The notes below the pieces were generated by a model. It was given only the letters and a program-made list of their open reading frames with translations. It had not been told where the DNA came from and did no database searches. From the NCBI GenBank assembly GCA_002633115.1, contig NWBJ01000045.1, forward strand, positions 23,739-87,738: DNA of 64,000 nt. Direction: 5' to 3'. Source of the stretch: Muribaculaceae bacterium Zag1 (GTDB lineage: Bacteria; Bacteroidota; Bacteroidia; Bacteroidales; Muribaculaceae). Position numbers and translations under genes: made by a program. Below are positions 2,597-49,874 of the stretch, one piece after another; the first letter of the stretch is position 1, and every line of letters starts with the position of its first letter.

Positions 2597-2782
2597 AGAC
2601 CATAAGGACATAAGAAACGTAAGCACGTAAGAAAACGTAAGCACGTAAGAAAACGTAAGCACACTATAGGTAAATTAAATTTAAATTACCTGAGGTGTGC
2701 TTACGTTTTCTTACGTGCTTACGTTTTCTTACGTGCTTATGGTTTCTTACGTGCTTATGGTTTCTTATGTGCTTACGTTTTT
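2597..2782. repeat. Reiterated inverted repeat, copy 1 (GTAAGCACGTAAGAAAAC words)
   Basis: The left arm is built of repeated GTAAGCACGTAAGAAAAC words and the right arm of their reverse complement, around an AT-rich centre (TAAATTAAATTTAAATTA). It starts directly after the stop codon at 2596. Six elements of this design occur in the window. A terminator or mRNA-end stabilising hairpin is plausible here. Confidence 0.8.
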
Positions 2783-2790
2783 GGTAGGTA

Positions 2791-2854
2791 CAAAAAAAAT
2801 TATTCGTCGTCACGACGAATAATCTTCTACCTTAAATCTAATACCATGAAAAAC
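2791..2854 (-). ncRNA. Candidate small RNA, copy A
   Basis: Read on the minus strand, a TACCTTTG promoter box is followed by GCATCAGTTTTTCATGGTAT, a TTAGATTTAAGGTAGAAG stretch, a 12-bp hairpin (ATTATTCGTCG... ACGACGAATAAT) and a run of eight Ts. That is a complete transcription unit of about 64 nt with no reading frame. A second copy lies on the plus strand at 49912-49976. The two hairpins differ by changes that keep pairing. No minus-strand gene lies close downstream, so it is not a leader. I cannot name an RNA family for it. Confidence 0.6.
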
Positions 2855-2859
2855 TGATG

Positions 2860-3043: not shown

Positions 3044-4552
3044 ATGAACGAATTGAGCGAACAAGAAGCCATACGCCGCGCCTCGCTGCAGAAGCTTCGC
3101 GATATGGGCATCGAGCCCTACCCCGCCGCGCTATATCCCGTCGACGCATATACCGACGAAATCAAGGCCAATTTCTCTGACGAGCAGCAGCCTCCGCGTC
3201 CCGTTACCATTGCCGGACGCCTCATGAGCCGCCGCATCATGGGCAAAGCATCATTTATCGAACTAATGGACTCGCGTGGACGCATCCAGGTGTATGTGTC
3301 GCGCGATGAAATATGCCCGGGCGAAGACAAAGACATGTACAATGTGGTGTTCAAGAAACTGCTCGACATCGGCGACTTCATCGGAATCAAGGGATTCGTA
3401 TTCCGCACCCAGACCGGCGAAATCACCGTGCATGCCCAAGAATTGACAGTGCTCAGCAAGAGCCTGCGCCCCCTGCCCATCGTTAAGGTCAAGGACGGCG
3501 TGGCTTATGACGCATTCGAGGACCCCGAGCAGCGCTATCGCCAGCGCTATGTCGACCTGGTAGTCAACCCCGGCGTGAAGGATATCTTCCTCAAGCGCAC
3601 AAAGGTCTACAACTCGATGCGCGAATATTTCAACCAAGCCGGCTACATCGAGGTTGAAACCCCCATCCTGCAGTCAATACCCGGCGGCGCATCTGCTCGC
3701 CCATTCATAACCCACCACAACGCCCTGGACATCCCCCTGTACCTGCGCATCGCTGATGAGCTGTATCTCAAGCGCCTGATCGTGGGCGGTTTTGAGGGCG
3801 TGTACGAGTTCTCAAAGAATTTCCGCAACGAGGGCATGGACCGCAACCACAATCCAGAGTTCACCTGCATGGAGATTTATGTCGCCTACAAAGACTACAA
3901 CTGGATGATGGACTTTACCGAGAAGATGCTCGAGAAGATTTGTCTCGACGTAAACGGTACCACCGAGGTCAAGATTGGCGACAATGTGATCAGCTTCAAG
4001 GCTCCCTATCGCCGCGTGACCATGATCGACGCCATCAAGGAGCATACTGGCATCGACATCACCGGCATGGACGAGGAGCAGCTGCGCGACGTGTGCCGCC
4101 AACTCGACATCGATGTCGACCCCAAGCTGGGCAAGGGCAAGCTCATCGATGAGATTTTCGGCGAGAAGTGCGAGGGCAAATACATCCAGCCCACCTTCAT
4201 CATCGACTACCCAATCGAAATGTCGCCCCTCACCAAGAAGCACCGCAACAACCCCGAACTCACCGAGCGCTTTGAGCTGATGGTCAACGGCAAAGAGCTG
4301 GCCAACGCTTACAGCGAGCTCAACGACCCCATCGACCAATACGAGCGCTTTGTCGAGCAAATGCGCCTGGGCGAAAAGGGCGACGATGAGGCTATGATCA
4401 TCGACCAGGACTTTGTGCGCGCCCTTGAATACGGAATGCCTCCGACATCAGGCATGGGCATTGGCATGGACCGCCTGGTGATGCTGATGACCGGCCAAAC
4501 CGCCATCCAAGAGGTGCTGCTATTCCCCCAAATGCGACCCGAAAAGAAATGA
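3044..4552 (+). CDS. lysS: Lysyl-tRNA synthetase, class II
   Basis: Charges tRNA-Lys with lysine in the cytoplasm. The protein has the OB-fold anticodon-binding domain at the N-terminus ([18 protein letters not shown]-like segment) and the class II catalytic core, with motif 2 [15 protein letters not shown] and motif 3 GIGMDRLVM near the C-terminus. From the ATG at 3044 it is 502 aa, usual for the family; the upstream ATG at 2999 would place 15 residues in front of a promoter box. It heads a same-strand run with gpsA, ruvX and def. Certain by family. Confidence 0.97.
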
Positions 4553-4622
4553 AAAATTAAAAATGAAAAATTAAAAATTCATTGTTCATTTTTCATTGTT
4601 CATTATTCATTTTTCATTAGAA
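4551..4622. repeat. Simple AT-rich repeat between lysS and gpsA
   Basis: Reiterated AAAAATTAAAAATGAAAAATT words are followed by their complement (TTCATTGTTCATTTTTCATT), giving a weak AT-rich stem. Similar ATGAAAAATGAA words occur after adk (9.7 kb), before the DUF1573 gene (40.0 kb) and at 46.57 kb. Confidence 0.6.
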
Positions 4623-9130: not shown

Positions 9131-9712
9131 ATGATCAATATTGTAATTTTCGGCGGTCCGGGTTCCGGCAAAGGCACTCAGAGCGCCAAGATAGCTAAGA
9201 AATACGGGCTATTCCACATCTCCACCGGCGATGTGCTACGCGATCATATAGCCCGCAAGACAGATATCGGCAAAGTGGCTCACAGCTATATCAGCCAAGG
9301 CATGCTTATACCCGATAAGTTGATGATCAAGATTCTTGAGGATCTGATGCGCAGCCGCGTTGAGGAGACCAAGCACGGCGTGATCTTCGACGGCTTCCCC
9401 CGTACCCTGCCTCAAGCCCAAGAGCTTGACATGCTGCTCACTACCCTCGACACCCGCATCGAAGCCGTAATCGGCCTCGAGGTGCCAGACGACGAACTCA
9501 CCAAGCGCCTGCTGCTGCGCGGCCAAGAGTCGGGCCGCAGCGACGATAACGCTGAAGCTATCCGCACCCGTCTCGCTGTATACCACAAGCAGACCAAACC
9601 GCTGATGGAATACTACAAAGAGACCGGTCGCTACCACGCTATCAACGGCGTAGCCACCATCGATGAAATCTTCGACCAAATCTGCGCCGTCATAGACAAA
9701 GCAAATGAATAA
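9131..9712 (+). CDS. adk: Adenylate kinase, short form
   Basis: Interconverts AMP and ATP with two ADP. The P-loop is FGGPGSGKGTQ (residues 7-17), the AMP-binding segment is STGDVLRDHI, and DGFPRTLPQA is the conserved Arg-containing motif. At 193 aa it is the short form without the zinc-finger LID insertion (LID region is RGQESGRSDDN). It follows hpt by 89 nt. The stop lies in ATGAATAATGAAAAATG-type repeat sequence. Confidence 0.95.
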   Translation: MINIVIFGGPGSGKGTQSAKIAKKYGLFHISTGDVLRDHIARKTDIGKVAHSYISQGMLIPDKLMIKILEDLMRSRVEETKHGVIFDGFPRTLPQAQELDMLLTTLDTRIEAVIGLEVPDDELTKRLLLRGQESGRSDDNAEAIRTRLAVYHKQTKPLMEYYKETGRYHAINGVATIDEIFDQICAVIDKANE

Positions 9713-9713
9713 T

Positions 9714-9780
9714 GAAAAATGAATAATGAAAAATAATCCAGTTGGGTTATTTTTCATTATTCATTTTTATTTTTTAATTT
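9714..9780 (+). terminator. AT-rich hairpin after adk
   Basis: AATGAATAATGAAAAATAA pairs with TTATTTTTCATTATTCATT across a short CCAGTTGGG loop, followed by TTTTTAATTT. A long stem with a T-rich 3' side directly after adk suggests a terminator. Confidence 0.6.
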
Positions 9781-11469: not shown

Positions 11470-11474
11470 TACAT

Positions 11475-11591
11475 AAAGACCGTAAGGACATAAGAAACAT
11501 AAGGACATAAACTATATAAGACTTTTCAAATTAAGTTTATCTGATAACATAAGCCTTGAGTCCTTATGTTGCTTATGTCCTTACGGTCTTT
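11475..11591. repeat. Reiterated inverted repeat, copy 2
   Basis: Left arm AAAGACCGTAAGGACATAAG plus AAACATAAGGACATAA; right arm TCCTTATGTTGCTTATGTCC plus TTACGGTCTTT. The centre is unrelated AT-rich sequence. It fills the gap between the acyl-CoA ligase and the 998-aa secreted protein, both on the plus strand. Confidence 0.8.
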
Positions 11592-11631
11592 ACTCCTATA
11601 AAGGAATTAAATCACAAATTATTTACCAATC

Positions 11632-14628
11632 ATGAAGAAACTGTTTCTTGTGTTCTTTGCGCTCATAGGAATGATGGCGCAAGGACAAGACCAAATCACC
11701 ACAGCCTATGCAATCAGATTTTACTCACCATCGACCGAGGAACAAGCCTTGGTAAAATTCTCAGTCACCGACCCGGGCACCATCACCGAAGTAATGGCGC
11801 TGCCTAACGGCATGTACACCCGAGGCGCCGCTTGCTACCAAGGCAAATACTACATAATCCAAAGCGATGACGGCATGGTCCCCTACTCGCTCTGGACCCT
11901 TGATATCACTACCAAGCAAACCACCAAGATCGCCGACTATACCACTCGCGACCGCGAGAGCGCCCTTATCATCATGGATATGACCTGCGACCCCAGCACC
12001 GGCGCACTCTATTGCTGGGCATTTGACCTTGACGGCGACCCGGATTTCTCTGACGATGAGGAGGTTGACATTCCCTTTGGCCTTTTCCTGATTGACACCG
12101 CTACTGGCGCTGTCACACTGATAGGATACGAAGAGGATGCCCAAGTGGTTGGCTCGGCCATCAACGAGGCTGGCGAGATGGTAGCCATCGATGCCCTCGG
12201 CAACCTGTGGCAAGTCGACATCATCACTGGCCAAATGGATAAATTGATTGGTCGCGTGGCTACTACCTCATCGCTATTGCAATCAATGGCTTACGACTAC
12301 AATACCGGCTATCTCTACTGGGCCGGTGTGGTAGAGAGCAACGTGGATTTGGTGCCTGATGACCCCTTCCTCGGCAGAATCGAAGTGAAAAAGGCATCGC
12401 TGACTTACGACTATATCGGCGCTTTTGAGGATCATCAAGAGCTAATCGGCCTCTACATCGACCCCGAAACCGTGTCGGCTTACGCGCCCCAAGCACCCAC
12501 CGAGGTTGCAGTAACTCCCGGCGAGCATGGCGCACAAACCGCTACAATCACTTGGCAGAATCCGGGCAAGACCATGAACAACCTGCCCCTCAGCGGCGCT
12601 GTCACTGCCAATATCTACCGCGATGGTCAGCTGATTGCCGAAACCATGGGCGGAAGTTATGAGTATAAGGAATACACCGATACCGAGGTACCCGACGGAC
12701 TGCATCTCTACAGCGTGAAATGCGCCAACGACTACGGCGAGGGCTATGCCACCTACGCCGAAGAGACATATATCGGCAACGACGTGCCTGGCGCTCCGGG
12801 CGATATCCAGGCTGAAAAAGAATTAAACATGTATGATGTCTGTCTGAGCTGGGAGGCCCCGACCATGGGCGAGCATAATGGCTGGTTTGACACCGAGACC
12901 CTGTGCTACAACGTGGTACGCCACCCCGACGAAGTGGTTATTGCCACCGACCTCAAGGAGACATCGCTCGTTGATACCTCAATCACCGAATTGGCTGGCT
13001 ACAGCTACACTATTACCGCTATCAATAGCAAGGGCGAAGGCGGAGCTGCTACAAGCGACATTGTGGTATCAGGTCCGGCTCTCGAGCTGCCTTACTATTG
13101 CGATTTCTCGACCGAGGCCGAAGCTAACCTGTGGACAGTCAAGGATTGGGACGGCGATGGCCAAACCTGGACTCGCGACTGCTTCACCTCAATCGACCAA
13201 TGGTATATGCGCTACGTGCCTGACTATGAGATTGACCCGGCTAAATCGGCCGATGACGAACTGATTTCGCCCCCATTCCAAGTCGAAATGGGCAAGAAAT
13301 ACATGGTGAAATATCAGCTCAGACTCTATGGGACAATGTTCCCCTACAGCTACTCGATAGGCTACAAGATTGGGGAGATGACTGACGACTTGCCACAAGT
13401 GATTGAGCAATATACCAATGTCACTGATACCTCGCTGCAATTTGTTGAGCATTATGTGAAATTCATAGCCACTGGCACCGGTGCTTGCAAGGCATATTTC
13501 ACCACTCTCAACTTGTCGATGGCCAATATCACCAATGTCAGCATCGAGGAGGTTACCGACTATGACTTAGCTGCCACCAATCTGGCTTGCGACCCAGTGG
13601 GCATGGTGGGCGTAGCTATGCCGACCGAGGTGACTGTCACCAACTACGGCGACAAGGATATCAGCACATTCTCAGTTGAGCTGCGCGAGGCTGAATCAAA
13701 CGTGCTGCTCGCATCGCAGACTTTCAGCCAGTCGATACCCACGCAGCAGAGCGTGACAGTGACTCTCGACCTTACGCCCACAACCGAGGGCGACTTGGCA
13801 TTCTACGCTACAGCCGTTATCGATGGTGACCAGAATAATGAGAATGATGCGAGCCCGATCGTAGAAATCAACGTATTGCCTGCTGGCCAATGGATCAACG
13901 TGGGCAGCGGCACGACCGAACAAATCATCGTGCCATTCCACCTGTATCGCCCATACAGCACCACCCAGACCCTGTACACAGCCAAATCGCTTGGCGACAA
14001 GACTGGCGAGATTGCTGGCATTAAGTTCTACTACACCGTCTACGCCAATCGCGCAGTCGATGACTTCTATGCCAGAATCTATCTAAGCGAGACTATGGAA
14101 TCGCAACTCAGCGAGAACCCCATCGACCTGGAGCAGATGACCTGCGTATTCGAGGGTTTGGTGACTGTCGACTCTTACGCCTCGGTGATGGCATTTATGT
14201 TTGATGAGAGCTATCAATGGCAGGGAGGCAACCTGCTTGTGGTTTGCCAGCAGGAGAATCCCGGAGGCAGTACCAACCTGCGCTGGCTTGGCACATACTC
14301 GTCGGGCGGACCCCAATACACTGCCTACAGCAGCGGCTCGACCCCCTACGATGGAGGCACATTTACCACAATGTCAGACCTGCCCAATGCATCATTCTAT
14401 CTGCCTGACACTGGCGGCATCGCCGACCTGGAGATGGAGGGCATCAAGGTGGGTGCCTCGTCGATTACTGGCCCCTGGAGTCGAGCACAGCTGTATTCGC
14501 TGTCGGGCATAGCCCTGCGCAGCAGCAACGATGCCATCGAAATCAGCGGCCTGCCAGCCGGCCTGTATATCCTGCGCTTTACCACCACCGATGGCCGCAC
14601 CCTCACAGCCAAGCTGCCAATCAATTAA
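11632..14628 (+). CDS. Large secreted multidomain protein with T9SS-like tail
   Basis: A 998-aa protein with a signal peptide (MKKLFLVFFALIGMMAQGQ). Residues 25-280 show repeating LYCWAFD / LFLIDTATGAVTLIG / LWQVDIITG blades that suggest a beta-propeller. About 285-470 hold two fibronectin type III-like modules (PTEVAVTPGEHGAQTATITW, PGDIQAEKELNMYDVCLSW). About 475-625 resemble a jelly-roll 'choice-of-anchor' domain (LPYYCDFSTEAEANLWT). About 635-735 are CARDB-like. About 735-910 resemble the N-terminal module of the two Omp28 paralogues at 21-25 kb. The end (LYSLSGIALRSS, GLYILRFTT) is a sorting-tail pattern. Probably a surface protein; the function is unknown. Confidence 0.75.
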   Translation: MKKLFLVFFALIGMMAQGQDQITTAYAIRFYSPSTEEQALVKFSVTDPGTITEVMALPNGMYTRGAACYQGKYYIIQSDDGMVPYSLWTLDITTKQTTKIADYTTRDRESALIIMDMTCDPSTGALYCWAFDLDGDPDFSDDEEVDIPFGLFLIDTATGAVTLIGYEEDAQVVGSAINEAGEMVAIDALGNLWQVDIITGQMDKLIGRVATTSSLLQSMAYDYNTGYLYWAGVVESNVDLVPDDPFLGRIEVKKASLTYDYIGAFEDHQELIGLYIDPETVSAYAPQAPTEVAVTPGEHGAQTATITWQNPGKTMNNLPLSGAVTANIYRDGQLIAETMGGSYEYKEYTDTEVPDGLHLYSVKCANDYGEGYATYAEETYIGNDVPGAPGDIQAEKELNMYDVCLSWEAPTMGEHNGWFDTETLCYNVVRHPDEVVIATDLKETSLVDTSITELAGYSYTITAINSKGEGGAATSDIVVSGPALELPYYCDFSTEAEANLWTVKDWDGDGQTWTRDCFTSIDQWYMRYVPDYEIDPAKSADDELISPPFQVEMGKKYMVKYQLRLYGTMFPYSYSIGYKIGEMTDDLPQVIEQYTNVTDTSLQFVEHYVKFIATGTGACKAYFTTLNLSMANITNVSIEEVTDYDLAATNLACDPVGMVGVAMPTEVTVTNYGDKDISTFSVELREAESNVLLASQTFSQSIPTQQSVTVTLDLTPTTEGDLAFYATAVIDGDQNNENDASPIVEINVLPAGQWINVGSGTTEQIIVPFHLYRPYSTTQTLYTAKSLGDKTGEIAGIKFYYTVYANRAVDDFYARIYLSETMESQLSENPIDLEQMTCVFEGLVTVDSYASVMAFMFDESYQWQGGNLLVVCQQENPGGSTNLRWLGTYSSGGPQYTAYSSGSTPYDGGTFTTMSDLPNASFYLPDTGGIADLEMEGIKVGASSITGPWSRAQLYSLSGIALRSSNDAIEISGLPAGLYILRFTTTDGRTLTAKLPIN

Positions 14629-14634
14629 TCAAAA

Positions 14635-14709
14635 ATAGGAATCCTAGGCGACCTAGGATTCCTATAATGCTATCAAAAATAGGAATCCTAGGCGACCTAG
14701 GATTCCTAT
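14635..14709 (-). terminator. Tandemly duplicated perfect hairpin at the end of the M16 operon
   Basis: ATAGGAATCCTAGG - CGA - CCTAGGATTCCTAT forms a perfect 14-bp stem at 14635-14665 and again at 14679-14709, as a 44-bp tandem unit. On the minus strand each stem is followed by five Ts, so these are likely two successive terminators for the minus-strand operon ending at 14832. They also lie just past the plus-strand gene ending at 14628. Confidence 0.75.
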
Positions 14710-14734
14710 TATGCTATGTCTGGGCCCCAACTTT

Positions 14735-17731: not shown

Positions 17732-17796
17732 AAATTTTTCCGAAAAAATGACATTATCGATTAAACCTTTTTATAATGCTTTAGTTTTCAGATATT

Positions 17797-17832
17797 TATA
17801 AGCCTAAGCACCACACGGTGCTTAGGCTTATA
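17797..17832 (-). terminator. Terminator hairpin of the secreted-protein block
   Basis: TATAAGCCTAAGCACC - ACAC - GGTGCTTAGGCTTATA is a perfect 16-bp stem located 26 nt past the stop of the 722-aa gene. Confidence 0.8.
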
Positions 17833-17857
17833 GTCAGGCTAGAACGGTGAATGAATG

Positions 17858-20026
17858 TCAACGTATGCGGGTCTTTACGCCATTGATGATGTAAATGCCC
17901 GGGGTGAGGCGCGATGCGTCGGTGCCGCAATCGATGCCCTGCAGGTTGTAGATATGGCCATTGAGAGTGTCAACAGCGGCCGAGCGGATAGCCGACGACT
18001 TTATGATTGACTCCTCGCTGTAGCTTACGCCCATGAATACCAAGTCGCCATAGGTGTCTTTGATTGGGAAGCCTTGCACATACCATGTGCCAGCCGGCAC
18101 TGAGCAATACTGGGTGTCAAGTTCTATCTCATCGCCATTGGCATCAGTGAGGACTACGCTGTACCAGCCTTGTTCCTCTGACTCAACCTGCTGCAGCTCG
18201 CAGTAGGAATAGAGAGGCTCTGAGGCCAAATCGGCGATATTGGCCACTGCTATGGGCTCGATAGTGCCTACATTCTCAGTCGATTCGCCAAATGCCTCAA
18301 ACGGAACATAGTAGACAGCGGTATCATCATACCATGATGCCGGATAGACTGTCACTGTAGCGCCAGCGGGAATCACATCGCCCATAGCATACTCGAGACC
18401 AGCCATGTACAGTGTGCCCTGTATGTCGTAGATGCGAGCGTATTCGTCGCCAGCCTTGACAAACATGTCGCGACCAGCCTCGATATTGGCATGGTAGATG
18501 ACGGTCATCGGGAAGTTGAATGTAGCCACTGAGTATGTGCCCAGCTCGTTAGCCTCGGCAAATGTCGAGCACTCGGTCACGGCTGTGATATAGACGCGAG
18601 CCATAGCCACACCCGAGAGGGTGCCATCCTCGCCTTGGGCGATAGCCTTGATGGTGACGCGGCCGTCGCCATAGACATTAAATTCGCCCACGTAGAGAGT
18701 AGATTCAATGGTTGGCTCAGAGCCATCGATGGTGTAATAAACCTTGCATCCCTCATCGGCAGTGATGGTGACAGGAGCGTAGTTGAGATAGTCAGTGTAC
18801 GGGTCAACATTGATTACGGGCAGAGCAACTGTAGAGTTGTAGATAAACTCGCTGACAATCACCCAATAGCCCGAGCCATAGAAGGCGCGAGCCAGGAATC
18901 CGCGCACATTGTACGGACCGCTGCCATCGGGATAGTCAACCATATAGTCGAGGGTCTGAGGATATAGCTCATTGCCCTCGGCATCCTCGATCATGTAAGT
19001 CGATGCATTGTAGTAGGTACCCTCGAGCAGCAGTGCGGCGTTGAGCAGCGAATCGTTGAGAGTAGCGAAGTCAGTCACCACGGTCGGCTCCGGCACTTCG
19101 TTGCCAGTCGATTCGACGGTCAGATCGCTCATGGGGAGCCAAGCCTCATTGTTTTCAAAGTCGTAATACTCAAGCTGCACTCCGGCGGCAATCATATCGC
19201 CAGCGTCAAAAGTGGCTGGGCCATTGACCATTGTCCACTCCTCGAGATAGAGCAGTCCCGGCTCGCCATCAGCAATCACATACAGGTTGGTATTCTCCTG
19301 GCCCACAACGAGCATAGGCGAGGTCATCAGCACGCGCACATCGCAATTGGCTGCTGCCTCGGTGAAGTTGGCCACCTCGGTGGGAGCGGTAATCACATAC
19401 TCGCGAGTGGTGACATTGGTCCATTGCTCATCGGTGTAGGTGGCGGCTTTGACGGTGCATGATTCTGAAATCACAAACGGCTCGGTGTATTCTGTCGATT
19501 CCAAAGTCGGGTCGGTGCCATCGAGAGTGTAGTAGGTAGTGCCCTCTACGCCAGCGATGGTAATGGTCTGTGCCTCATAGTAGGTGCCAGAGGCTGGCGA
19601 GATGGCGGGAGCGGTGTCATAGGTAATGGTCATCGATGACAGGTTGTACTGCATCACGCTGTTGTTAGTGAATACCACCTTGGCCACGCCGATTTCTGAG
19701 CAAGTGTTGCCATCCATCACACCGGCGCTCGGGCTGAAGGGCAGAGCATCGTCATCGGCCACGAATGTCACCTCCTGGATTGTGCCCACCGAGGTGTCGA
19801 CGGTGATGGTGTTGTAAGCATTGACGCGCAGCATGTTGTTGTAATAGCGCGGAGCGGTCATGTTCATTCCGGCTGAGAATGACACATTGACATCGCCGCT
19901 GGCGATGCGAGTGGCCTGAGTGCCGTCCTCAGCGCCTTGGGCGGTGAAGTCGACAGTGACTGTCTCGGCCAAAGCCATCGCGGGCAGCATAGCAGCCGCC
20001 AGTAAAGAGTAAAAAAGTTTTCTCAT
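17858..20026 (-). CDS. Secreted protein with chitobiase-like domains and T9SS-like tail
   Basis: A 722-aa protein with a signal peptide (MRKLFYSLLAAAMLPAMALA). Residues 20-130 form a beta-rich module also found at the N-termini of the 56962 and 59001 proteins. Two CHB_HEX_C-type domains follow (SPASGTYYEAQTITI with TTYYTLDGTDPT near 140-210; CKVYYTIDGSEPT near 430-480). OB-fold-like beta modules lie between and after (VANFTEAAANCDVRVLM; VTECSTFAEANELGTY). The C-terminal tail is IYNLQGIDCGTDASRLTPG then IYIINGVKTRIR, a T9SS sorting pattern. Chitobiase-like domains here are structural and no catalytic domain is seen. Confidence 0.78.
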   Translation of the reverse strand: MRKLFYSLLAAAMLPAMALAETVTVDFTAQGAEDGTQATRIASGDVNVSFSAGMNMTAPRYYNNMLRVNAYNTITVDTSVGTIQEVTFVADDDALPFSPSAGVMDGNTCSEIGVAKVVFTNNSVMQYNLSSMTITYDTAPAISPASGTYYEAQTITIAGVEGTTYYTLDGTDPTLESTEYTEPFVISESCTVKAATYTDEQWTNVTTREYVITAPTEVANFTEAAANCDVRVLMTSPMLVVGQENTNLYVIADGEPGLLYLEEWTMVNGPATFDAGDMIAAGVQLEYYDFENNEAWLPMSDLTVESTGNEVPEPTVVTDFATLNDSLLNAALLLEGTYYNASTYMIEDAEGNELYPQTLDYMVDYPDGSGPYNVRGFLARAFYGSGYWVIVSEFIYNSTVALPVINVDPYTDYLNYAPVTITADEGCKVYYTIDGSEPTIESTLYVGEFNVYGDGRVTIKAIAQGEDGTLSGVAMARVYITAVTECSTFAEANELGTYSVATFNFPMTVIYHANIEAGRDMFVKAGDEYARIYDIQGTLYMAGLEYAMGDVIPAGATVTVYPASWYDDTAVYYVPFEAFGESTENVGTIEPIAVANIADLASEPLYSYCELQQVESEEQGWYSVVLTDANGDEIELDTQYCSVPAGTWYVQGFPIKDTYGDLVFMGVSYSEESIIKSSAIRSAAVDTLNGHIYNLQGIDCGTDASRLTPGIYIINGVKTRIR

Positions 20027-20056
20027 AAACGGTATTTAATTATGTTTTTTCTTAAT

Positions 20057-20164
20057 AACCACGGATTACACGGATTACACGGATATATGGAATATGCAAG
20101 ATTATAGTTAATCGCTTGGGGTTGCACGGACTATGTTGATGGTATCCGTGTAATCCGTGGTTCT
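20057..20164. repeat. CACGGATTACACGG inverted repeat
   Basis: Left arm AACCACGGATTACACGGATT, right arm ATCCGTGTAATCCGTGGTT, with a loop of about 60 nt. The same element design recurs at 52315-52435, and one arm at the window start. It fills the gap between the 722-aa gene and the FISUMP-like gene. Confidence 0.75.
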
Positions 20165-20174
20165 ATTCAATGGG

Positions 20175-20936
20175 TTAGTTTCCTTGGTTGTAGACTGGGC
20201 GGATGGGCAGTCCCTCCACTCGCGGGCAAGCCATGAAGGGGAGCTCTGCTGTGCCAGTGCCGGCTACCACCGATGCGGTCTCAGTGTTCTCCTCGGCCTG
20301 GGCGCAATACATGATATATGCGCCCTCGATATTCATAGTGAAGCGCAACCCCGACCAATACATGCCGTATAGGCCCACCTCTTCGGCTTGGTCAGATGAG
20401 GTCTTGCGGCCAGCCAGCGGGAAGAATACGCTATTGCCATTCTCCGCAGTAAAGCGCACGCCATCGACATTGTTGAGGGTCTCAAATGTTGCAGTTGTGT
20501 TGAGCATCAGCTCCATCTGCTGAGCCGGGGTAGGCACTGCCCAACCCTCGCCATAAGCGGCTGTGGCTGCATCATAAGCCGGATCGCCTGAGATGTCGGA
20601 TGGCATCTCATCGAAATAATAGTCGCTATAATCATCCTCGGTGTATGCCTCGCCCTCGGGGTGAGGAGCTATCTCGCCCCAAGCATAGTAATATCCGCAG
20701 TCCTCCTCGGCATCTGCGCCCAGGTTGCACTGAGCCCACAGCAGACCCGAGGGAAGTCCCAGATCGACCAAAGTCGGAGTCGAGGCTGCGCTCTCCTCAA
20801 AAGTTACCACATCAATATCATTGACATCAATCTCGATGCGCGTTTGGTCGGTCTTGGTGATGACCATCTTGGTCTGAGCACTGACGGTGAGGCACATTGC
20901 CATCAAGGCGATGGCGCATAGCATTATCTTTTTCAT
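20175..20936 (-). CDS. Secreted FISUMP-like domain protein
   Basis: A 253-aa protein with a signal peptide (MKKIMLCAIALMAMCLTVSA). After a short lead-in (KTDQTRIEIDVNDIDVVTFEE) it carries a domain of the Fibrobacter succinogenes major paralogous type: VDLGLPSGLLWAQCNLGA, YYYAWGEI, GEGWAVPTPAQQMELM and a C-terminal SLPIRPVYN-like end (EGLPIRPVYNQ). Such domains are common in Bacteroidetes surface proteins; the function is not known. Its ATG overlaps the stop of the upstream 163-aa gene (ATGA). Confidence 0.8.
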   Translation of the reverse strand: MKKIMLCAIALMAMCLTVSAQTKMVITKTDQTRIEIDVNDIDVVTFEESAASTPTLVDLGLPSGLLWAQCNLGADAEEDCGYYYAWGEIAPHPEGEAYTEDDYSDYYFDEMPSDISGDPAYDAATAAYGEGWAVPTPAQQMELMLNTTATFETLNNVDGVRFTAENGNSVFFPLAGRKTSSDQAEEVGLYGMYWSGLRFTMNIEGAYIMYCAQAEENTETASVVAGTGTAELPFMACPRVEGLPIRPVYNQGN

Positions 20937-21424
20937 TTCTTCAGGATTTTTACAGTTTGGCGATTATTGACATTTAACAGATACACACCAGTGGGGAGGT
21001 CCTCAAGCGACACCTCCATGGTGGGCATCGATGTTCCCTTCTGGGCTGACAGCACAACAGCTCCGCTCATAGTGAAGAGGCGAGCGGTGACCGGCCCCTC
21101 AGCGGCGATTTCCACACGGTTGGGCGCTGTGAACCGGAAAGTGATATTCTGTACATCGGCCACTGGAGCCGCAATGCCGGCAGCCGGCGATTCAGAGAAA
21201 AAGTAAGACGCAATATCCGCGATGGGATAACTCACCTCTTCTTGTTGGGTCAAGATGAGTAGGGTGGATGCATCGGGGAAAATGAGCTCGGGCTGCGATG
21301 CGAAGGCATAGCTGTAGACCGCGCCATCGTTGAGCTTGAGGTTAAGATAAGCCAAGTCGGCCGCTCTGCCCCACAGGCATCCCAGCGCCAGGCATAGCAA
21401 GGAGATTATCAGATGTTTTTTCAT
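20933..21424 (-). CDS. Small secreted protein with T9SS-like tail
   Basis: A 163-aa protein with a signal peptide (MKKHLIISLLCLALGCLWGRAA). The N-terminal part (LNLKLNDGAVYSYAFASQPEL and a VSYPIADIASYFFSE strand) resembles the short lead-in found in many Bacteroidetes secreted proteins. The second half is almost only a sorting domain: RLFTMSGAVVLSAQ, PTGVYLLNVNNRQTVKILKK. It may be a minimal cargo or a carrier for the overlapping downstream FISUMP-like protein. Confidence 0.75.
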   Translation of the reverse strand: MKKHLIISLLCLALGCLWGRAADLAYLNLKLNDGAVYSYAFASQPELIFPDASTLLILTQQEEVSYPIADIASYFFSESPAAGIAAPVADVQNITFRFTAPNRVEIAAEGPVTARLFTMSGAVVLSAQKGTSMPTMEVSLEDLPTGVYLLNVNNRQTVKILKK

Positions 21425-21440
21425 ACCGGGGTTGGTTTTG

Positions 21441-23348
21441 TCATTTTACATTCACTTTTTGAGCTTGATTGCCGCAGCGCACAATATACACGCCGCTCGG
21501 CACGGAGATCGACTCGGCCATTGACTTGGCGCGTAGCGAGCCGTCGATGCCGTAGACCTCCACTGGAGCCTTAGCGCCCGTCACGCGGATAGCGCCACAG
21601 TCGCCAACGGCCTTAAATGCTTGGTCAACAGCCACGCTCTCAATGCCAGCGGGCAGGTCGAGAGGCACTCTCTGGGTGTTGATCACCTCACACTGAGCCG
21701 GATTGCTGGTGCTGAAGTATGACACGAATACGCATGCCCACATATCCTCGGGCTTATTGTAGACGTATCGGCCAGATGTCAAGTCCGGGATTACATAACT
21801 GAACGATCCGCTATAATCCTTGGTCAAGTCGATTGCAGTGCCCCAGCAGCCGGTGGCATTGCCGCGATACACGTGATTATGGGTCCAATCGATGGTACCG
21901 TCGTAGCTCTGTTGGCGACCAGCGATATTGTCCTCCATCACATAGATATTGAGGCGTACCTCGCGATCAGAGAGAGTGGCGAGCGGCGAGGCAGTAATGT
22001 CAAAGGTAATGGTGCGCGAGGCAGCGTCATAAGATGCCTCGGCTCCCAATTCTACTATGGCTGGCAAAGCGAGGGCCGAATTGATGGCACTCTTTACGGT
22101 GATGGCATCAGACGGGAACATCACCGGGGTGTAACTGCCCGAGGTGAGCACGGTGCGGTCGAGCATGATGGCCGGAGCATAGGTGCTGCCGTTGTAGAAC
22201 CATACATAATTCTCGTCATCCTGGGTTGTGAGGAAGTCGGTCTCATATCCGGCATGATGGGACACCCATACCACATTGTCGCCAACCTCCTCCATCACTT
22301 GCTCGAGCACCTCATCGGCTGCCGGGCAGTTGACGCATGCTTGGGTGGTGAAATGCTCCATCAGCACTGTGCGCTGCTTGGTACCAGCCAGCACTGAGAA
22401 TCGGCCAGTCCAGCTGTTGTTGCTGAGCGTGGGGTCGTCACTGTCAGATGGGGTCAAGGTAAGCACAACATCAACATCGCCAGCCATATCGGCCGTGACG
22501 GGGAGACCCATATTGAGTTCTGCCGTCTGACATGAGCCCAGGTCGCAAGCAAAGGTGCCAGTGAGGGTTTGGCTCTCTGCCTCGCCATAAGACACCACTG
22601 CCTCATAATCAATCGCTGTGAGTGACTGGGCACCGCTGTTGTAGATAAAAGCCGACAGGGCGCAGTCGGCACCGGGATAACCGAAATTGTCAAGTTGTCC
22701 GTCGAGTATCTCTATGTCATTGGCTGGCAGGTTTTCGCCCTCGATATACAGGCCGATGCAATTGGCATAGCCCGAGGCATTGACAATGTATGCCCCATTG
22801 TTGGAATAATAACCATACAGGTCGTTGGTGCCAGTGATGGTAAGGCGCGTGTCGGCGCCCTCAACGATTGGACGGCTCGACGAACTGGTAGCCACTTGGT
22901 ATCCCACATACAGTTCTTCACCTCCGGTGATGGTATAAGGTGCGTCAAGCTCTATATCGTAAACCACGGGGGTGGTAGAATCCTCGGCCGAGACCACATC
23001 GGCATCTTGCTGATACTCGAAGTAGCCGTCTTCGCGGCAGTCCTTGGTGATATTGATTTTGAAGTTGGGACGTGAGCGGAAAGTGCCTAGCACTACCCTC
23101 ACTTTGGTGATTTTTGCGCCATTGTACAGGGCGGTGCGTTCGGCTGGCAGACAGATGTAGGCAAACGAGGTAGTTGAGCCAGTCGAGATAGTTCCCACCG
23201 AGGCATCAGTCGGCACATAAGTGAATAACATCTCTTCTGCCTCGGCACGGCTTGCCTCAGGTGCCTTTGCGGGCTGGATGTCAACCTGGGCCGATGTGGC
23301 AAGCGCCATGCATGCCATCATGGGCAATAATATGTGTTTAAGTTTCAT
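21441..23348 (-). CDS. Omp28-related secreted protein with CxxC site and T9SS-like tail
   Basis: A 635-aa protein with a signal peptide. Residues 40-200 form a beta module shared with the 633-aa neighbour. About 205-320 look CARDB-like. About 325-560 are the Omp28 domain, a thioredoxin-like fold with a CVNC motif (VLMEHFTTQACVNCPAADEV). The C-terminal VYGIDGSLRAKS / PSGVYIVRCGNQAQKVNVK is a sorting tail. The two cysteines could serve redox chemistry; that is inferred. It is followed closely by the 163-aa gene and preceded by its paralogue. Confidence 0.82.
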   Translation of the reverse strand: MKLKHILLPMMACMALATSAQVDIQPAKAPEASRAEAEEMLFTYVPTDASVGTISTGSTTSFAYICLPAERTALYNGAKITKVRVVLGTFRSRPNFKINITKDCREDGYFEYQQDADVVSAEDSTTPVVYDIELDAPYTITGGEELYVGYQVATSSSSRPIVEGADTRLTITGTNDLYGYYSNNGAYIVNASGYANCIGLYIEGENLPANDIEILDGQLDNFGYPGADCALSAFIYNSGAQSLTAIDYEAVVSYGEAESQTLTGTFACDLGSCQTAELNMGLPVTADMAGDVDVVLTLTPSDSDDPTLSNNSWTGRFSVLAGTKQRTVLMEHFTTQACVNCPAADEVLEQVMEEVGDNVVWVSHHAGYETDFLTTQDDENYVWFYNGSTYAPAIMLDRTVLTSGSYTPVMFPSDAITVKSAINSALALPAIVELGAEASYDAASRTITFDITASPLATLSDREVRLNIYVMEDNIAGRQQSYDGTIDWTHNHVYRGNATGCWGTAIDLTKDYSGSFSYVIPDLTSGRYVYNKPEDMWACVFVSYFSTSNPAQCEVINTQRVPLDLPAGIESVAVDQAFKAVGDCGAIRVTGAKAPVEVYGIDGSLRAKSMAESISVPSGVYIVRCGNQAQKVNVK

Positions 23349-23395
23349 GTTGGTTTTTGGTTTTTAGTTTTTGGCTTTTGGCATTATAGCCCCCA

Positions 23396-25297
23396 TCATC
23401 TTATGCAGATTTTCTTATTAGTCTGTCCAAAGCTCAGGATATAGAAGCCCGGACGCAATGTCGCGGTTTCACCGGCTCTCAAGTTGGCTGCCACACGGCC
23501 ATCAAGAGTAATCACTTGGCCAGAGGCAAGGGCGGTAAACACCCGACCATCCAAAGCATAAGCCGCAGTGCTGTCGCTATTGACACTGCTCACCCCGTTG
23601 TATCCTGGAATGTCAGCTATATATGGCAGGTCGAGACGCAACTCGGTAGCATTTAGCACCTCGGCTTGCAATGGGTCGGCACCGTCATAGTAGCTGAAGA
23701 AGCCCACAATGCTCAGATTGCGTGAATCAACCACACCGTTGAGAGACAGAGTGAAGCGAGGGATATCGTCAGTAAAGATATCGAGATCTTTCCTTACTCC
23801 CCAAGCATCGCCGAGGCTGCTGCGAGCCACGCGATTGTGGGTGAATGAGCGATAGTTGTCGGCGCCTTTCTGGTAGCCCACAACGCTATCCTCAACCAGC
23901 ACGGCATTAAAATAGGTGGTACGCCCCTCAATCAGGCCATCCATGACTCGGAAAAGCAGGTCAAAGCTTACCTCATATTTCTCCTCGTCGACCTTAACAT
24001 TGTCAAGCCAGAGCTCAACGCAGGCCGGGATTTCAAACATCTCCTTGCAAAGCGCTCCGGTGTTTTCATAAGGATAGGTGATGGGGATATCCACATCGTC
24101 GTCATACTGGGTGCGGTCCATCATCACAGCCGGGAGCTGCATAGCGTAGGGCCAATAGAAAAATTGGAAATCATTGATGATTGGCGAGGTGAGTTCGTCG
24201 CTATCGGCATAGTGGCGCACCTGGATTACATTGTCGTATCCCACATACTTAGCGGCAGCCTCAAGGCGCTCATAAGCGGTAACCGAGGTCACATCGTAGA
24301 TTGACATCAAGCTCTCCATCAGCACTTTGCGCGGAGCCGCATCAGCTAAGCATGTATAGGTGACAGTGGCCGAATTGTTGTCGGGGTATTGGTCAATTGC
24401 TCCACGGGGGTCTATGTCTAAGGCTACCTTGACGCGGCCAGCCATCTCATCGACATTGTTGACATCGTAGGTAAAGACATCAAAGGCCCCGGGAGCCAAC
24501 TCTTTGTCGACCGAAATCACTTCGCCCTCATAGCTCATCTCTCCTTGTTCCGGATCGGTGTACGATACAAACACAGCGGCGCTATATCCGCTCAGGGTCG
24601 CTGAGCCATTGTTCTTGACCATGGCGCTGATGGTGATGGTGTGGCCCGAGTAGCCGTAACGGTCAGTCCACGAGCGCACAAGCTCTAAGTCGTAGGCTGG
24701 AGCATTGTCGCCCTCGATCACCAAGATGATGGGATTGACATAGCCCGACGAGCGGCAAGGGCTCGTCCCATCATCGAGGGTATAACCCGTGATGTCGTTG
24801 AGGCCAGTCTTCACCGGGTAGTCGGCCGCATAAGCCCAAGGATACTGGTCGGCAGTAGCATCAACCTGATAGCCAACGTATATCGGCTTGCCCGCCTCAA
24901 TCTGATAGGGTTCGGCCAGAGCTACCGTATTCCAGGCCGGAGCCGACGCTGTGCCAGGAGTGATTTCGCCCGTCTGCTGATATTCGTACGATGAATTTGA
25001 GAGATAGTCGGTGGTGATGTTTAGGCTGAAATTAGTGTTTGGCGACTTGCGGCATGAGCCCACGGCAAACTTTACGGCTGTAATCTTGCAACCGTCAAGC
25101 ACCTGGGTATATGCCGATGAGAGGCCCACGTAGGAGAAATGTGTGGTGCGTCCCGCCGACTTGGTGAGCGACAATTCGGCATCCTCGGGACAATAGGCGT
25201 AATGGATTTCTCCGGCATGCGCCCATCCGCTCAAAGCAAAGGCTGCGAGGGACACGAGCATCGCCCTCGATAGGTTTTTAGGTAAAGATTTTGTCAT
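23396..25297 (-). CDS. Omp28-related paralogue lacking the CxxC motif
   Basis: A 633-aa secreted protein (signal peptide ending near GWAHAG) with the same order of modules as the 635-aa neighbour. The place of the CxxC motif reads VLMESLMSIYDVTSVTAYERL, with no cysteine, so any redox role is lost. Downstream Omp28 landmarks remain (QLPAVMMDRTQYDDD; GADNYRSFTHNRVARSS). The C-terminal tail is PGFYILSFGQTNKKICIR. It is the first gene of a minus-strand block of five secreted proteins and has a divergent promoter facing a Crp-like regulator gene. Confidence 0.8.
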   Translation of the reverse strand: MTKSLPKNLSRAMLVSLAAFALSGWAHAGEIHYAYCPEDAELSLTKSAGRTTHFSYVGLSSAYTQVLDGCKITAVKFAVGSCRKSPNTNFSLNITTDYLSNSSYEYQQTGEITPGTASAPAWNTVALAEPYQIEAGKPIYVGYQVDATADQYPWAYAADYPVKTGLNDITGYTLDDGTSPCRSSGYVNPIILVIEGDNAPAYDLELVRSWTDRYGYSGHTITISAMVKNNGSATLSGYSAAVFVSYTDPEQGEMSYEGEVISVDKELAPGAFDVFTYDVNNVDEMAGRVKVALDIDPRGAIDQYPDNNSATVTYTCLADAAPRKVLMESLMSIYDVTSVTAYERLEAAAKYVGYDNVIQVRHYADSDELTSPIINDFQFFYWPYAMQLPAVMMDRTQYDDDVDIPITYPYENTGALCKEMFEIPACVELWLDNVKVDEEKYEVSFDLLFRVMDGLIEGRTTYFNAVLVEDSVVGYQKGADNYRSFTHNRVARSSLGDAWGVRKDLDIFTDDIPRFTLSLNGVVDSRNLSIVGFFSYYDGADPLQAEVLNATELRLDLPYIADIPGYNGVSSVNSDSTAAYALDGRVFTALASGQVITLDGRVAANLRAGETATLRPGFYILSFGQTNKKICIR

Positions 25298-25347
25298 CTA
25301 TTGGAGTTAAAAAAGATAAATTTAAGTTTTTTAATTGGTTCTGAACG

Positions 25348-25379
25348 CAAAGATAGGTATAAAAGTCGAATGAAACAAT
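25348..25379 (-). promoter_or_regulatory. Promoter of the Omp28-paralogue block
   Basis: On the minus strand ATTG (25376-25379), 20 nt, TATCTTTG (25348-25355). It diverges from the regulator promoter with about 20 bp between the two -33 regions, so one bound regulator could affect both. Confidence 0.7.
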
Positions 25380-25399
25380 TTGAATTTCCAATAAATCTA

Positions 25400-25430
25400 T
25401 TGAGAAAACATAAAAAAAATGCTATCTTTG
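25400..25430 (+). promoter_or_regulatory. Promoter of the Crp-like regulator gene
   Basis: TTG (25400-25402), 20 nt, TATCTTTG (25423-25430). The box lies after the ATG at 25419 used in the ORF track, so the coding start must be further downstream, at 25452. Confidence 0.7.
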
Positions 25431-25451
25431 CAGAAACATTATTCTTTGACT

Positions 25452-29660: not shown

Positions 29661-31223
29661 GTGGTCAACAACAAATACCGTATCCTCTGGGCCGACGATG
29701 AGATCGACCTCCTTAAGCCCCATTTGCTCTTCCTCAGAAACAAGGGCTACATAGTAGACATTGCCAACAATGGCCGCGACGCCCTCGACCTCGTGGCCAT
29801 CGACCCTACCATCGACCTGGCTATCCTCGATGAGAATATGCCCGGCCTCACCGGCTTGGAGACACTGAGCCAAATCAAGCAGGCGCGCCCCGAGCTGCCC
29901 GTGGTGATGATCACCAAGAGCGAGGAGGAAAACATTATGGACCAAGCCGTGGGCAACAAGATAGCCGACTATCTGATCAAGCCGGTCAACCCCAATCAGA
30001 TACTATTGGCTATCAAGAAGATACTGCATGGCGGCCAATTGGTGTCGCAGCAAGCCTCGACCGACTACCGCCAAGAATTTGCCAACATATCCACCCAAAT
30101 CAACAACGCCTCGACCATCGAGGATTGGAGCGAACTCTATTCCAAGCTGGTCTATTGGGAGATGGAGCTCGCCTCGGCCGAGACAAATATGGACGAGATG
30201 CTGGCTCTGCAGCGCGAAGAGGCCAACAGCGAGTTTGGCAAATTCGTCAAGCGTCACTATGAAAAATGGGTATCAGCCGATGGCATCTGCGAGGGCGCCC
30301 CGCTGATGTCCCCCCAGCTGATACCTAAGAAGGTGTTTCCGATGCTCGACGAGGGTGAAAAGGTTTTCTTCATCGTCATCGACAACTTCCGCCTCGACCA
30401 ATGGCGCACAATCAAGCCCCTCCTCGCCGAGAGTTTCACTTTTGACGAGCAGCTCTATTGCGCCATGCTCCCAACTGCCACGCAATACGCCCGCAATGCC
30501 ATTTTCTCGGGCCTGATGCCTCTGCAAATTGAGAAAATGTTCCCCGAACTATGGGTCGATGAGGATTCAGAGGAAGGCAAAAATCTCAACGAATCGCCGC
30601 TGGTAGCCACCCTGTTTGAGCGCTATCGCCGCAAGTGCAGCTTCACATACAACAAGCTCAACGATTCGGTGGCCTGCGAGAAGCTGCTGCGCGAGTATTC
30701 GCGCCTCGAGGATGCCGACTTCAATATAATAGTGGTGAATTTCATCGACATGATGAGCCATGCGCGCACCGAATCGAAGATGATACGCGAACTGGCTGGC
30801 ACCAATGCCGCCTACCGCTCGATCACTGAGTCTTGGTTCCGCCACTCGCCCATCCTCGACATCTTCCGCCGCATAGCCGAGAAGGGCCACAAGATAGTGC
30901 TCACCACCGACCATGGCACCATACGCGTAGAGACACCCGTCAAGGTAGTTGGCGACAAGAACACCAACACCAACCTGCGCTACAAGGTCGGCAAGAATCT
31001 CAACTATCCGCAAAAGCAGGTCTATGAGGTGAAGCGCCCTGAGCAATTCGGGCTGCCATCGCCCAACATCTCATCGACCTACATCTTTGCCACTGGTCGC
31101 GACTTCTTTGCCTACCCCAACAACTACAATTACTACGTGCAATACTACACGGGCACCTTCCAGCACGGCGGCATCTCCCTCGAAGAAATGCTCGTCCCCC
31201 TCGTCGCCCTCACCCCCAAGTAA
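29661..31223 (+). CDS. porX: PorX, response regulator with PglZ domain (T9SS control)
   Basis: A two-part cytoplasmic regulator. Residues 1-125 form a CheY-like receiver with acidic pocket ADDEID, phosphoacceptor LAILDENMPG (Asp about 52) and the switch lysine in YLIKPVN. Residues about 210-515 form a PglZ alkaline-phosphatase-like domain with metal-ligand landmarks IVIDNFRLDQW, LPTATQYARNAIFSG and LTTDHGTIRVETP. PorX with the kinase PorY and a sigma factor controls T9SS genes in Porphyromonas; no porY is in this window. Start is GTG at 29661. Adjacent porW supports the assignment. Confidence 0.93.
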   Translation: MVNNKYRILWADDEIDLLKPHLLFLRNKGYIVDIANNGRDALDLVAIDPTIDLAILDENMPGLTGLETLSQIKQARPELPVVMITKSEEENIMDQAVGNKIADYLIKPVNPNQILLAIKKILHGGQLVSQQASTDYRQEFANISTQINNASTIEDWSELYSKLVYWEMELASAETNMDEMLALQREEANSEFGKFVKRHYEKWVSADGICEGAPLMSPQLIPKKVFPMLDEGEKVFFIVIDNFRLDQWRTIKPLLAESFTFDEQLYCAMLPTATQYARNAIFSGLMPLQIEKMFPELWVDEDSEEGKNLNESPLVATLFERYRRKCSFTYNKLNDSVACEKLLREYSRLEDADFNIIVVNFIDMMSHARTESKMIRELAGTNAAYRSITESWFRHSPILDIFRRIAEKGHKIVLTTDHGTIRVETPVKVVGDKNTNTNLRYKVGKNLNYPQKQVYEVKRPEQFGLPSPNISSTYIFATGRDFFAYPNNYNYYVQYYTGTFQHGGISLEEMLVPLVALTPK

Positions 31224-31384
31224 AGACCATAAGGACATAAAGACCGTAAGGACATAAAGACCATAAGGACAAAAGGGACGTAAGGATTTAATAAAAAAGT
31301 CCCAACCTCCTTTCTGTCCTTACCCTCTTATGTACTTATGCCTCTTATGTTCTTATGGTCTCTTATGTCCTTACGGTCTTTTTT
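31224..31384. repeat. Reiterated inverted repeat, copy 3
   Basis: Three copies of AAGACCATAAGGACATAA-like words begin right after the porX stop; the right arm ends TCTTATGTCCTTACGGTCTTTTTT. The arms are less perfect than in the other copies (GTACTTATGCC, GTTCTTATGG variants). The T-run at the right end could serve as a plus-strand terminator for porX. Confidence 0.78.
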
Positions 31385-31437
31385 GTTAAATTACTTATAA
31401 AAATAGGGGAGGGGTGGTGCAATTGGAGATTAATTCG

Positions 31438-31445
31438 TAACTTTG
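31438..31445 (+). promoter_or_regulatory. -7 box for the DUF2723 gene
   Basis: TAACTTTG matches TAnnTTTG, 30 nt before the ATG. No clear -33 TTTG at 20 nt. Confidence 0.55.
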
Positions 31446-31475
31446 CAGGATTTTTACGCGTAACCAATCATTGAA

Positions 31476-35396: not shown

Positions 35397-35403
35397 GCCT
35401 CAG

Positions 35404-36021: not shown

Positions 36022-36184
36022 AAAAGGAAACGTAAGCACGTAAGATTAACGTAAGCACGTAAGATAAACGTAAGCACTATGAGACTTCCTTATATTATTT
36101 ATATGGATACACTGAGTGTATATCAGTGTGCTTACGTTAATCTTACGTGCTTACGTTAATCTTACGTGCTTACGTTTCCTTTTG
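36022..36184. repeat. Reiterated inverted repeat, copy 4
   Basis: Left arm words GTAAGCACGTAAGATTAAC, right arm GTTAATCTTACGTGCTTAC, matching each other precisely although they differ from copy 1 (GTAAGCACGTAAGAAAAC). The centre is AT-rich with its own small hairpin (ACACTGAGTGTATATCAGTGT). The track start of queG at 36166 (GTG) lies inside the right arm. Confidence 0.8.
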
Positions 36185-36189
36185 CGCTT

Positions 36190-48857: not shown

Positions 48858-48877
48858 CGAATTTTTCCTCAAAAAAC

Positions 48878-49008
48878 GACCGTAAGGACATAAGAAACAT
48901 AAGGACATAAGAACAGTGGAGCAAGCATTTTAGAGTAAATATAAGGAAAATATGAGGAAATGGTCTATATTCTTAGGTCCTTATGTTTCTTACGTCCTTA
49001 CGGTCTTT
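48878..49008. repeat. Reiterated inverted repeat, copy 5
   Basis: Left arm GACCGTAAGGACATAAGAAA plus CATAAGGACATAAG; right arm CTTAGGTCCTTATG plus TTTCTTACGTCCTTACGGTC. It lies between the divergent genes rbfA and the O-methyltransferase, so it is upstream of both. The track start of the methyltransferase (48952) runs through it. Confidence 0.8.
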
Positions 49009-49023: not shown

Positions 49024-49653
49024 ATGGAGATTGACGATTATATATTGGAGCATATCGAGGCTGAGCCGGAGCATCTGCAGCGGCTGTATCGCAACACGTA
49101 TCTGAGGCACCTGTACCCGCGCATGTGCTCGGGCCATCTGCAGGGCCGACTGCTGAAGATGCTGACCCAGATGATCCAGCCCAAGCGCATCATCGAGCTG
49201 GGCACATTCACCGGCTACAGCGCCCTGTGCTTCGCCGAGGGCATGCCCGACGATGCCGTGCTGCACACGGTCGAGATTGACGACGAGATGGCCGACGAGC
49301 TGCGCTCGACCTTCGATTCCACCCCCTGGGCCGACCGCATACATCTGCATATCGGCGATGCGCTCGAGGTGGTGCCGACGCTCGACGAGCAGTGGGACCT
49401 GGCATTTATCGATGCCAACAAGCGCAACTACATCGAATATTACGAGATGCTGGTGCCGCGCATGCGCCCCGGCGGCTACATCATAGCCGACAACACCCTG
49501 TGGAGCGACAAGGTGCTCGACCCAGCTGCCAACCACGACCCCCAGACCCGCGCCGTCCTCGCCTTCAACGACCACATAGTCCGCGATCCGCGCGTCTCTG
49601 CCGTCATCCTCCCCCTCCGCGACGGCATGACCCTGATCCGGATACAACCCTAG
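49024..49653 (+). CDS. Class I SAM-dependent O-methyltransferase (family 3)
   Basis: A 209-aa methyltransferase of the catechol / caffeoyl-CoA O-methyltransferase type. The SAM-binding motif I is IIELGTFTGYSAL (about residues 59-71), followed by VLHTVEIDDEMADE (acidic end of beta 2), IHLHIGDALEVVP and DLAFIDANKRNYIEYYE, with the metal-binding Asp, and GGYIIADNTLWSDKV. The ATG at 49024 avoids residues coded by repeat copy 5. The substrate is unknown. The gene is flanked on both sides by related inverted repeats (copies 5 and 6). Confidence 0.92.
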   Translation: MEIDDYILEHIEAEPEHLQRLYRNTYLRHLYPRMCSGHLQGRLLKMLTQMIQPKRIIELGTFTGYSALCFAEGMPDDAVLHTVEIDDEMADELRSTFDSTPWADRIHLHIGDALEVVPTLDEQWDLAFIDANKRNYIEYYEMLVPRMRPGGYIIADNTLWSDKVLDPAANHDPQTRAVLAFNDHIVRDPRVSAVILPLRDGMTLIRIQP

Positions 49654-49659
49654 GGAATC

Positions 49660-49830
49660 AAAGACCGTAAGGACATAAAGACCGTAAGGACATAAGAAAC
49701 ATAAGGACATAAGCAATGTTGTTACATGGATTTTCTGTTTTTTATGTGGCCTTACGTTTCTTATGTCCTTACGTTTCTTATGGCCTTACGTTTCTTATGG
49801 CCTTACGTTTCTTATGTCCTTATGGTCTTA
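49660..49830. repeat. Reiterated inverted repeat, copy 6
   Basis: Left arm AAGACCGTAAGGACATAA twice plus GAAACATAAGGACATAAG. Right arm holds CTTACGTTTCTTATGTCC and CTTACGTTTCTTATGGCC words and ends TTATGGTCTTATTTT. It separates the O-methyltransferase from small RNA copy B. Together with the next two entries it accounts for the gap 49654-50062. Confidence 0.8.
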
Positions 49831-49874
49831 TTTTCCTTAAATAATGCTAAATCGAAAATATTTTTGCCCCAAAA

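Follow-up and report, generated by a model that had tools for sequence, protein, structure and literature searches.

Several kinds of dispersed or self-complementary hairpin offer a comparison for the elements described here. REPINs are doublets of REP sequences that form hairpins, with two conserved inverted arms, a variable spacer, an extragenic location, hundreds of units and compensatory differences between the arms (PMC3116915). GTAG/CGTC-tagged palindromes are short and dispersed, and often touch stop codons (PMC3733652). The BrickBuilt MITE of Porphyromonas gingivalis, from the same order as the bacterium studied here, forms long intergenic stem-loops of short tandem repeats with a unit of 23 nt; its about 19 copies of 100-1000 nt have IS5-like ends and are mostly conserved in place between strains (PMC4596501). 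Hairpins can also be created and corrected by template switching, loop inversions included (PMC8794818).

Our window, a stretch of 64,000 nucleotides from Muribaculaceae bacterium Zag1, contains six large inverted repeats, all of them where a preliminary description had placed them (Table 1). We lean, with no great confidence, towards regarding these as dispersed REPIN/MITE-like hairpins that occupy gene 3' ends; they are probably retained there as structures independent of sequence, and template switching would copy one arm from the other.

Structure, vocabulary and distribution of the hairpins

The arms of all six elements are complementary, and as RNA the elements fold far better than dinucleotide shuffles (z -9 to -20).

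Table 1. Inverted repeats of the window, their arms, arm complementarity and RNA folds (z relative to dinucleotide shuffles).
Element	Position	Strand	Type	Arms	Complementarity	Fold	Neighbouring genes
1	2597..2782	.	type A arms (GTAAGCACGTAAGAAAAC) nested in type B words	main arms 2615-2679 / 2680-2744; extra words of right arm up to 2781	91% over 65 nt	-92.5 kcal/mol, z -19.9	begins at stop codon of ORF ending 2596
2	11474..11592	.	type B	11474-11506 / 11560-11592	97%	z -9.3	
3	31221..31387	.	type B	about 31221-31286 / 31325-31387	79% over 34 nt	z -10.6	
4	36022..36183	.	type A, ATTA linkers	36022-36082 / 36123-36183	95% over 61 nt	-100.6 kcal/mol, z -18.3	
5	48875..49008	.	type B	48875-48913 / 48970-49008	92% over 39 nt	z -10.3	between divergent gene starts, rbfA (-) and O-methyltransferase (+)
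6	49642..49839	.	type B	left about 49660-49719; right 49737-49839, with extra word copies	77-86% in complementary registers	z -13.0	3' of O-methyltransferase gene

The arms are written in a small vocabulary: the first arm uses RTAAG words and the second CTTAY words, an order held in the parsed elements. Type A consists of AACGTAAGCACGTAAG-NNNN-ACGTAAGCACACC, an AT-rich loop and the reverse complement, and type B of GACCGTAAGGACATAAGAAACATAAGGACATAAG, a loop and the reverse complement; the two can be nested, as in element 1. The same word recurs in both arms of copy 1 (AAGAAAAC) and of copy 4 (AAGATTAAC), as first reported. Element ends read AACGTAAG or AGACC, and the end words by which a parent insertion sequence would be recognized are GACCRTAAGG or AACGTAAGCAC. 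The core word RTAAGNACRTAAG occurs 23 times in the window (0.03 expected), always inside the six hairpins, and 173/169 times in the genome (4.46 Mb, 137 contigs); the reversed control has 2/0 occurrences.

Parsing of stretches around word matches yielded 82 elements across the genome, a list that is large rather than exhaustive, and we estimate about a hundred elements. The type A unit has 55/56 occurrences in the genome and is also carried by a sister genome, G549 (4.1 Mb, ~93% identity in flanks); it was absent from 395 other genomes drawn from the phylum in a draw without the sister. As exact patterns, the TAGGAATCC and CCRCAAGG families were found in only these two of 49 genomes of the genus. 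Elsewhere in the genus and family, most species have few of the words or none; tens occur in a few members of other genera. Loci in genomes G034, G054, G117 and G146 hold inverted pairs of this design, accompanied by different words. No Rfam family covers the elements. The hairpin-rich pair also has large genomes, 4.5 and 4.1 Mb as compared with 1.8-2.9 Mb for the 47 other genomes of the genus.

Were the words recognition sequences, for DNA uptake or another purpose, and their pairing as hairpins incidental, one could understand their many copies, their family-specific 'dialect' and their occurrence as inverted pairs after genes. However, the words of the window are confined to the hairpins and not over-represented in genes or elsewhere, and most relatives in the genus lack them; we find this reading scarcely credible. 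A phage origin was rejected, exact type A or B units being absent from viral contigs. Integron attC sites, considered for their matched arms and judged informally, were set aside as well: the elements lie kilobases apart and adjoin unrelated genes.

Other structured features share the window. Rfam matches to FopS (RF04319), just above the gathering score, lie directly beside elements 1 and 6, at 2790-2856 (-) and 49910-49977 (+); FopS are paralogous sRNAs that act on polysaccharide-use operons in Bacteroides thetaiotaomicron (PMC11697453). Two very large inverted repeats of other families occupy 57346-57582 (a 67-bp perfect pair with GTGCGTAGCACGG words) and 57642-57870 (a 59-bp pair with GCTACCCCGTAGGGGTTGTTTCAT). 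Heptamer-based arrays are present at 4547-4618, 9703-9780 and 41839-42013, some of them palindromic (AAATGAATAATGAA and its reverse complement); one heptamer array has 17 copies of ATAACTC right after recA. The protein encoded at 29661-31223 combines a response-regulator receiver domain with a PglZ domain.

Location at gene ends and turnover between sister genomes

The stem starts a median of 4 nt from the nearest stop codon, and 83% of starts lie between -5 and 40 nt. In a simple ORF model, neighbouring genes are tandem on the plus strand in 27 cases, convergent in 17, tandem on the minus strand in 15 and divergent in 4, such that divergent regions hold about 5% of elements. Copy 5 is a true divergent case, and the earlier argument that not all copies can be terminators stands for it, although most copies lie directly 3' of stop codons.

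Both flanks of 63 elements were found in the sister genome, giving 62 orthologous sites after removal of one duplicate. In this comparison of two genomes, with gain and loss unpolarized by an outgroup, the sister has the same element at 8 sites, another strong hairpin (mostly from a different repeat family) at 41, no strong stem at 9 and a nearly empty site at 4. The 41 differing hairpins comprise 16 of the CCACAAGGACATAAAACC family, 6 of TAGGAATCCTAGG and 4 of CACAGATT, the rest being mixed or unclassified. All six window elements are affected: in the sister, the site of element 1 holds a different hairpin, the stop codon before element 2 is followed by an unrelated inverted repeat of CACAGAT words, a TAGGAATCTTAGG hairpin of 72 nt stands in place of element 3, the site of element 4 is empty, and those of elements 5 and 6 each hold a CCACAAGG-type hairpin. 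At a further locus (L093) the sister retains a single arm word, with a short shared ACGT at the join, which can be read as loss of the hairpin by deletion. Several elements have the same loop in the two separate assemblies, so that an assembly artefact is unlikely.

Strong stems were found at 50/63 sister sites as compared with 2/295 shuffles, and at 32/44 sites picked from our genome's own flanks alone. A sister stem is present at 27/36 element sites versus 8/25 control gene ends (p 0.0014), the controls being a small set of our genome's own tandem or convergent gene ends with neither element nor stem, taken from a rough ORF model, and the comparison being confounded by operon-end status. This confounder itself fits a terminator reading. 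The differing sister hairpins at the same gene ends matter more than the matching of arms with which the preliminary description was concerned.

Sister differences of other kinds also occur within the window. The hairpin at 9703-9780 is missing from the sister, and about 8.6 kb (17776-26404) is absent from sister contig JAJBUH010000025.1 at that point, the gap ending at a small TAAGCCTAAGCACC hairpin (17797-17831). A tandem pair of TAGGAATCCTAGGCGACCTAGGATTCCTA hairpins at 14628-14717 is in the same place in the sister too; it belongs to a family that replaces several type A/B elements there.

The location after stop codons and the strength of the stems would be expected of ordinary intrinsic terminators, with arms held in pairing by selection for compensatory substitutions. 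Nevertheless, at 30-60 bp the arms are longer than a terminator requires, the loops too are long, and the T-runs that follow the stem are weak (at least 5 T of 8 in 16/75). The combination of GC-rich stem, short loop and T-run typical of intrinsic terminators was not found, and a standard terminator scan of 30500-50400 did not call the elements. Moreover, the sequences belong to a shared repeat family, hairpins are replaced whole instead of being edited, and retained elements change mostly in one arm; these last two observations disfavour ordinary compensatory evolution. We consider the terminator explanation highly improbable.

A bolder proposal, which we put forward tentatively and would sooner expect to fail than to hold, is that gene 3' ends of these bacteria hold interchangeable hairpin cassettes: unrelated families would replace each other quickly at the same sites, the structure being inherited through its position as the sequence is exchanged, with arm-to-arm copying keeping the pairing. 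A limited literature search, of partial coverage, found no report of whole-hairpin exchange at orthologous gene ends.

Dispersal of elements and matching of their arms

At least one whole element is dispersed. Element 1 and an element ~21 kb away on the same contig (L070) share 86% identity over 188 nt in inverted orientation, and with 4.1 kb around element 1 as query the similarity is confined to the element, thus revealing one whole element at two loci with unrelated neighbours. Near-identical units of 27-30 nt also recur at tens of unlinked loci.

These observations bear on the idea of neutral minisatellite growth, in which seeds at gene ends would lengthen by slippage and turn palindromic by template switching, without dispersal or function. 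Tandem word arrays, some of them without a second arm (L096), are in keeping with such growth, as are the heptamer arrays elsewhere in the window and two cases in which stems run into the host flanks. But near-identical units at so many unlinked loci need copying between loci, and a whole-element copy has unrelated flanks. The idea is largely refuted by dispersal and explains only part of the length variation; as a full account it is improbable. The two stems in question extend 6-10 nt into neighbouring host DNA (L073 and L136, of which the latter may be a gain or a loss); inverted copying of host flanks was rejected as a general insertion footprint, being clear in only these 2 cases among 45 sites.

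Like MITEs, the elements have terminal inverted repeats, lack coding capacity and exist in dispersed copies. They might be non-autonomous transposons of the classical sort (MITE or REPIN proper) that a specific transposase mobilizes, for which the 3'-end position is merely harmless and the hairpin functionless. Whole-element dispersal, empty sites, conserved arms with free loops and a patchy distribution all speak for this. However, at the small number of empty sites 3, 74 and 75 no direct target-site duplication was seen beyond 2-3 nt of microhomology (site 75 has an inverted copy of the flank), and a genome search that covered the Y1 matches on contigs C80 and C34 found no linked transposase. 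In addition, hairpins of other families recur at the same sister sites more than at control gene ends. On balance we hold the transposon explanation to be possible and rather unlikely.

Five Y1 transposase matches are present in the genome, on C34, C66, C80, C85 and C131. For the best, on C80, the 1,976-base locus is free of element words, which speaks against a RAYT link; this match carries YIENQKEHH, the signature of Y1 subclass 1.2, a subclass reported without REPs (PMC6006769). The match on C34 has no listed core word within 6 kb. Bacteroidetes also have Y1 subclass 2.6, flanked by atypical structures (PMC6006769), which may be seen as a lead.

The preliminary description held that arms are matched within, and not between, elements, and had proposed comparing arm-to-arm with between-element identity. 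For left arms against reverse-complemented right arms of the 72 usable elements, similarity is 0.686 within elements versus 0.428 between them, exceeding the maximum of 20,000 permutations (0.526). The corresponding values are 0.739 and 0.582 for type A (permutation maximum 0.664), and a marginal 0.618 and 0.536 for type B (maximum 0.612); within elements, GTAAGCAC-type arms match strongly and GTAAGGACATAAG-type arms weakly. The innermost arm-unit linker, of 2-7 nt and mostly 4 nt in type A, is equal in both arms in 32/55 elements (shuffle mean 6.07, maximum 15), the 55 including several type B units. As fixed words are common to elements, "not between elements" applies to linkers and most loops, not to the whole arm. 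The loops, described as unrelated, mostly are, save for two pairs: that of copy 1 is related, inverted, to that of L070 (C45:5.4 kb), and one duplicate pair lies 2.5 kb apart. The latter consists of two type A elements with an identical loop (L095:1380-1476 and 3935-4027), taken as a duplicate.

That arms evolve together within an element is supported by matching beyond chance and by one clear case each of concerted change and loop inversion. In the first, L078 and its sister counterpart L164 have the same loop, while the linker of both arms is CTTA/CTTA in our genome and TTAA/TTAA in the sister, with two compensatory pairs close to the changed linker. In the second (L056 and sister L162), the loop is inverted between conserved flanks, and the linker differs in one arm. 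Template switching or strand swapping would be expected to leave both kinds of trace. The remaining retained orthologues, by contrast, have about 13 one-arm stem changes versus 2-3 paired ones (L054, L064, L067, L059 and L088 show mainly the former), and type B is matched only slightly. Since most changes affect one arm, arms are corrected only now and then, and a large part of their matching must go back to the origin or spread of the elements.

A model of hairpin turnover and its relation to known systems

In the reading that we favour, of dispersed hairpins kept as 3'-end structures, hairpin families would spread within the genome and insert or re-form preferentially just after stop codons, where selection or tolerance may act on the presence of a stem. 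The hairpin would be tolerated, and probably kept, as a sequence-independent 3'-end structure, with candidate roles in terminating transcription on both strands and/or in shielding the 3' ends of mRNAs. As such a structure would not depend on sequence, one hairpin family could replace another, and hairpins would be lost by deletion or supplanted by other families. The arms would match through intramolecular template switching, one being copied from the other at formation and occasionally later. Against this model stand the failure to find a linked transposase or, at empty sites, a clear target-site duplication, modest T-runs, the absence of a terminator call, the mostly one-arm changes and the ~5% of elements in divergent regions.

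If confirmed, the model would mean that close species can share 3'-end hairpins as conserved structures whose sequences are hardly conserved at all, through substitution of mobile-like families. Sequence-based comparison would then miss conserved 3'-end structures in Bacteroidales, and the elements would provide a natural system in which to measure hairpin birth, loss, arm correction and loop inversion.

Each of the known systems accounts for part of this picture. Template switching, or quasipalindrome mutation, predicts perfect stems, changes of several bases in both arms and inverted loops, features seen at L078 and L056 (PMC8794818), but it is a mutation process and not an element, and leaves the shared vocabulary and position unexplained. 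Intrinsic (Rho-independent) terminators likewise form a stem-loop right after the stop codon, and the outer 3' arm here is pyrimidine-rich, often ending in TT; however, our elements have longer stems and loops and a weak T-run, are also found in divergent regions and consist of repeat-family sequence. With BrickBuilt they share the design of intergenic stem-loops, though with units of 17-19 nt, and its ends GAGACC/GGTCTC resemble the type B ends AGACC/GGTCT, over 6 nt only (PMC4596501). Unlike BrickBuilt, they number about a hundred, are short, turn over fast and have no demonstrated insertion sequence. GTAG/CGTC palindromes differ in unit size and in their end tags, neither GTAG nor CGTC appearing in the consensus here. 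The elements share with REPINs inverted conserved units, a variable spacer, extragenic location and high copy number, but their arms are multi-word and up to about 60 bp long, they are placed tightly after stop codons, and their families swap at orthologous sites. No GTAG-type tetranucleotide was seen at the palindrome foot, nor was a linked RAYT gene found at the C80 and C34 matches, and we do not claim REPIN membership; the nearest known relatives are REPINs, GTAG/CGTC palindromes and BrickBuilt MITEs.
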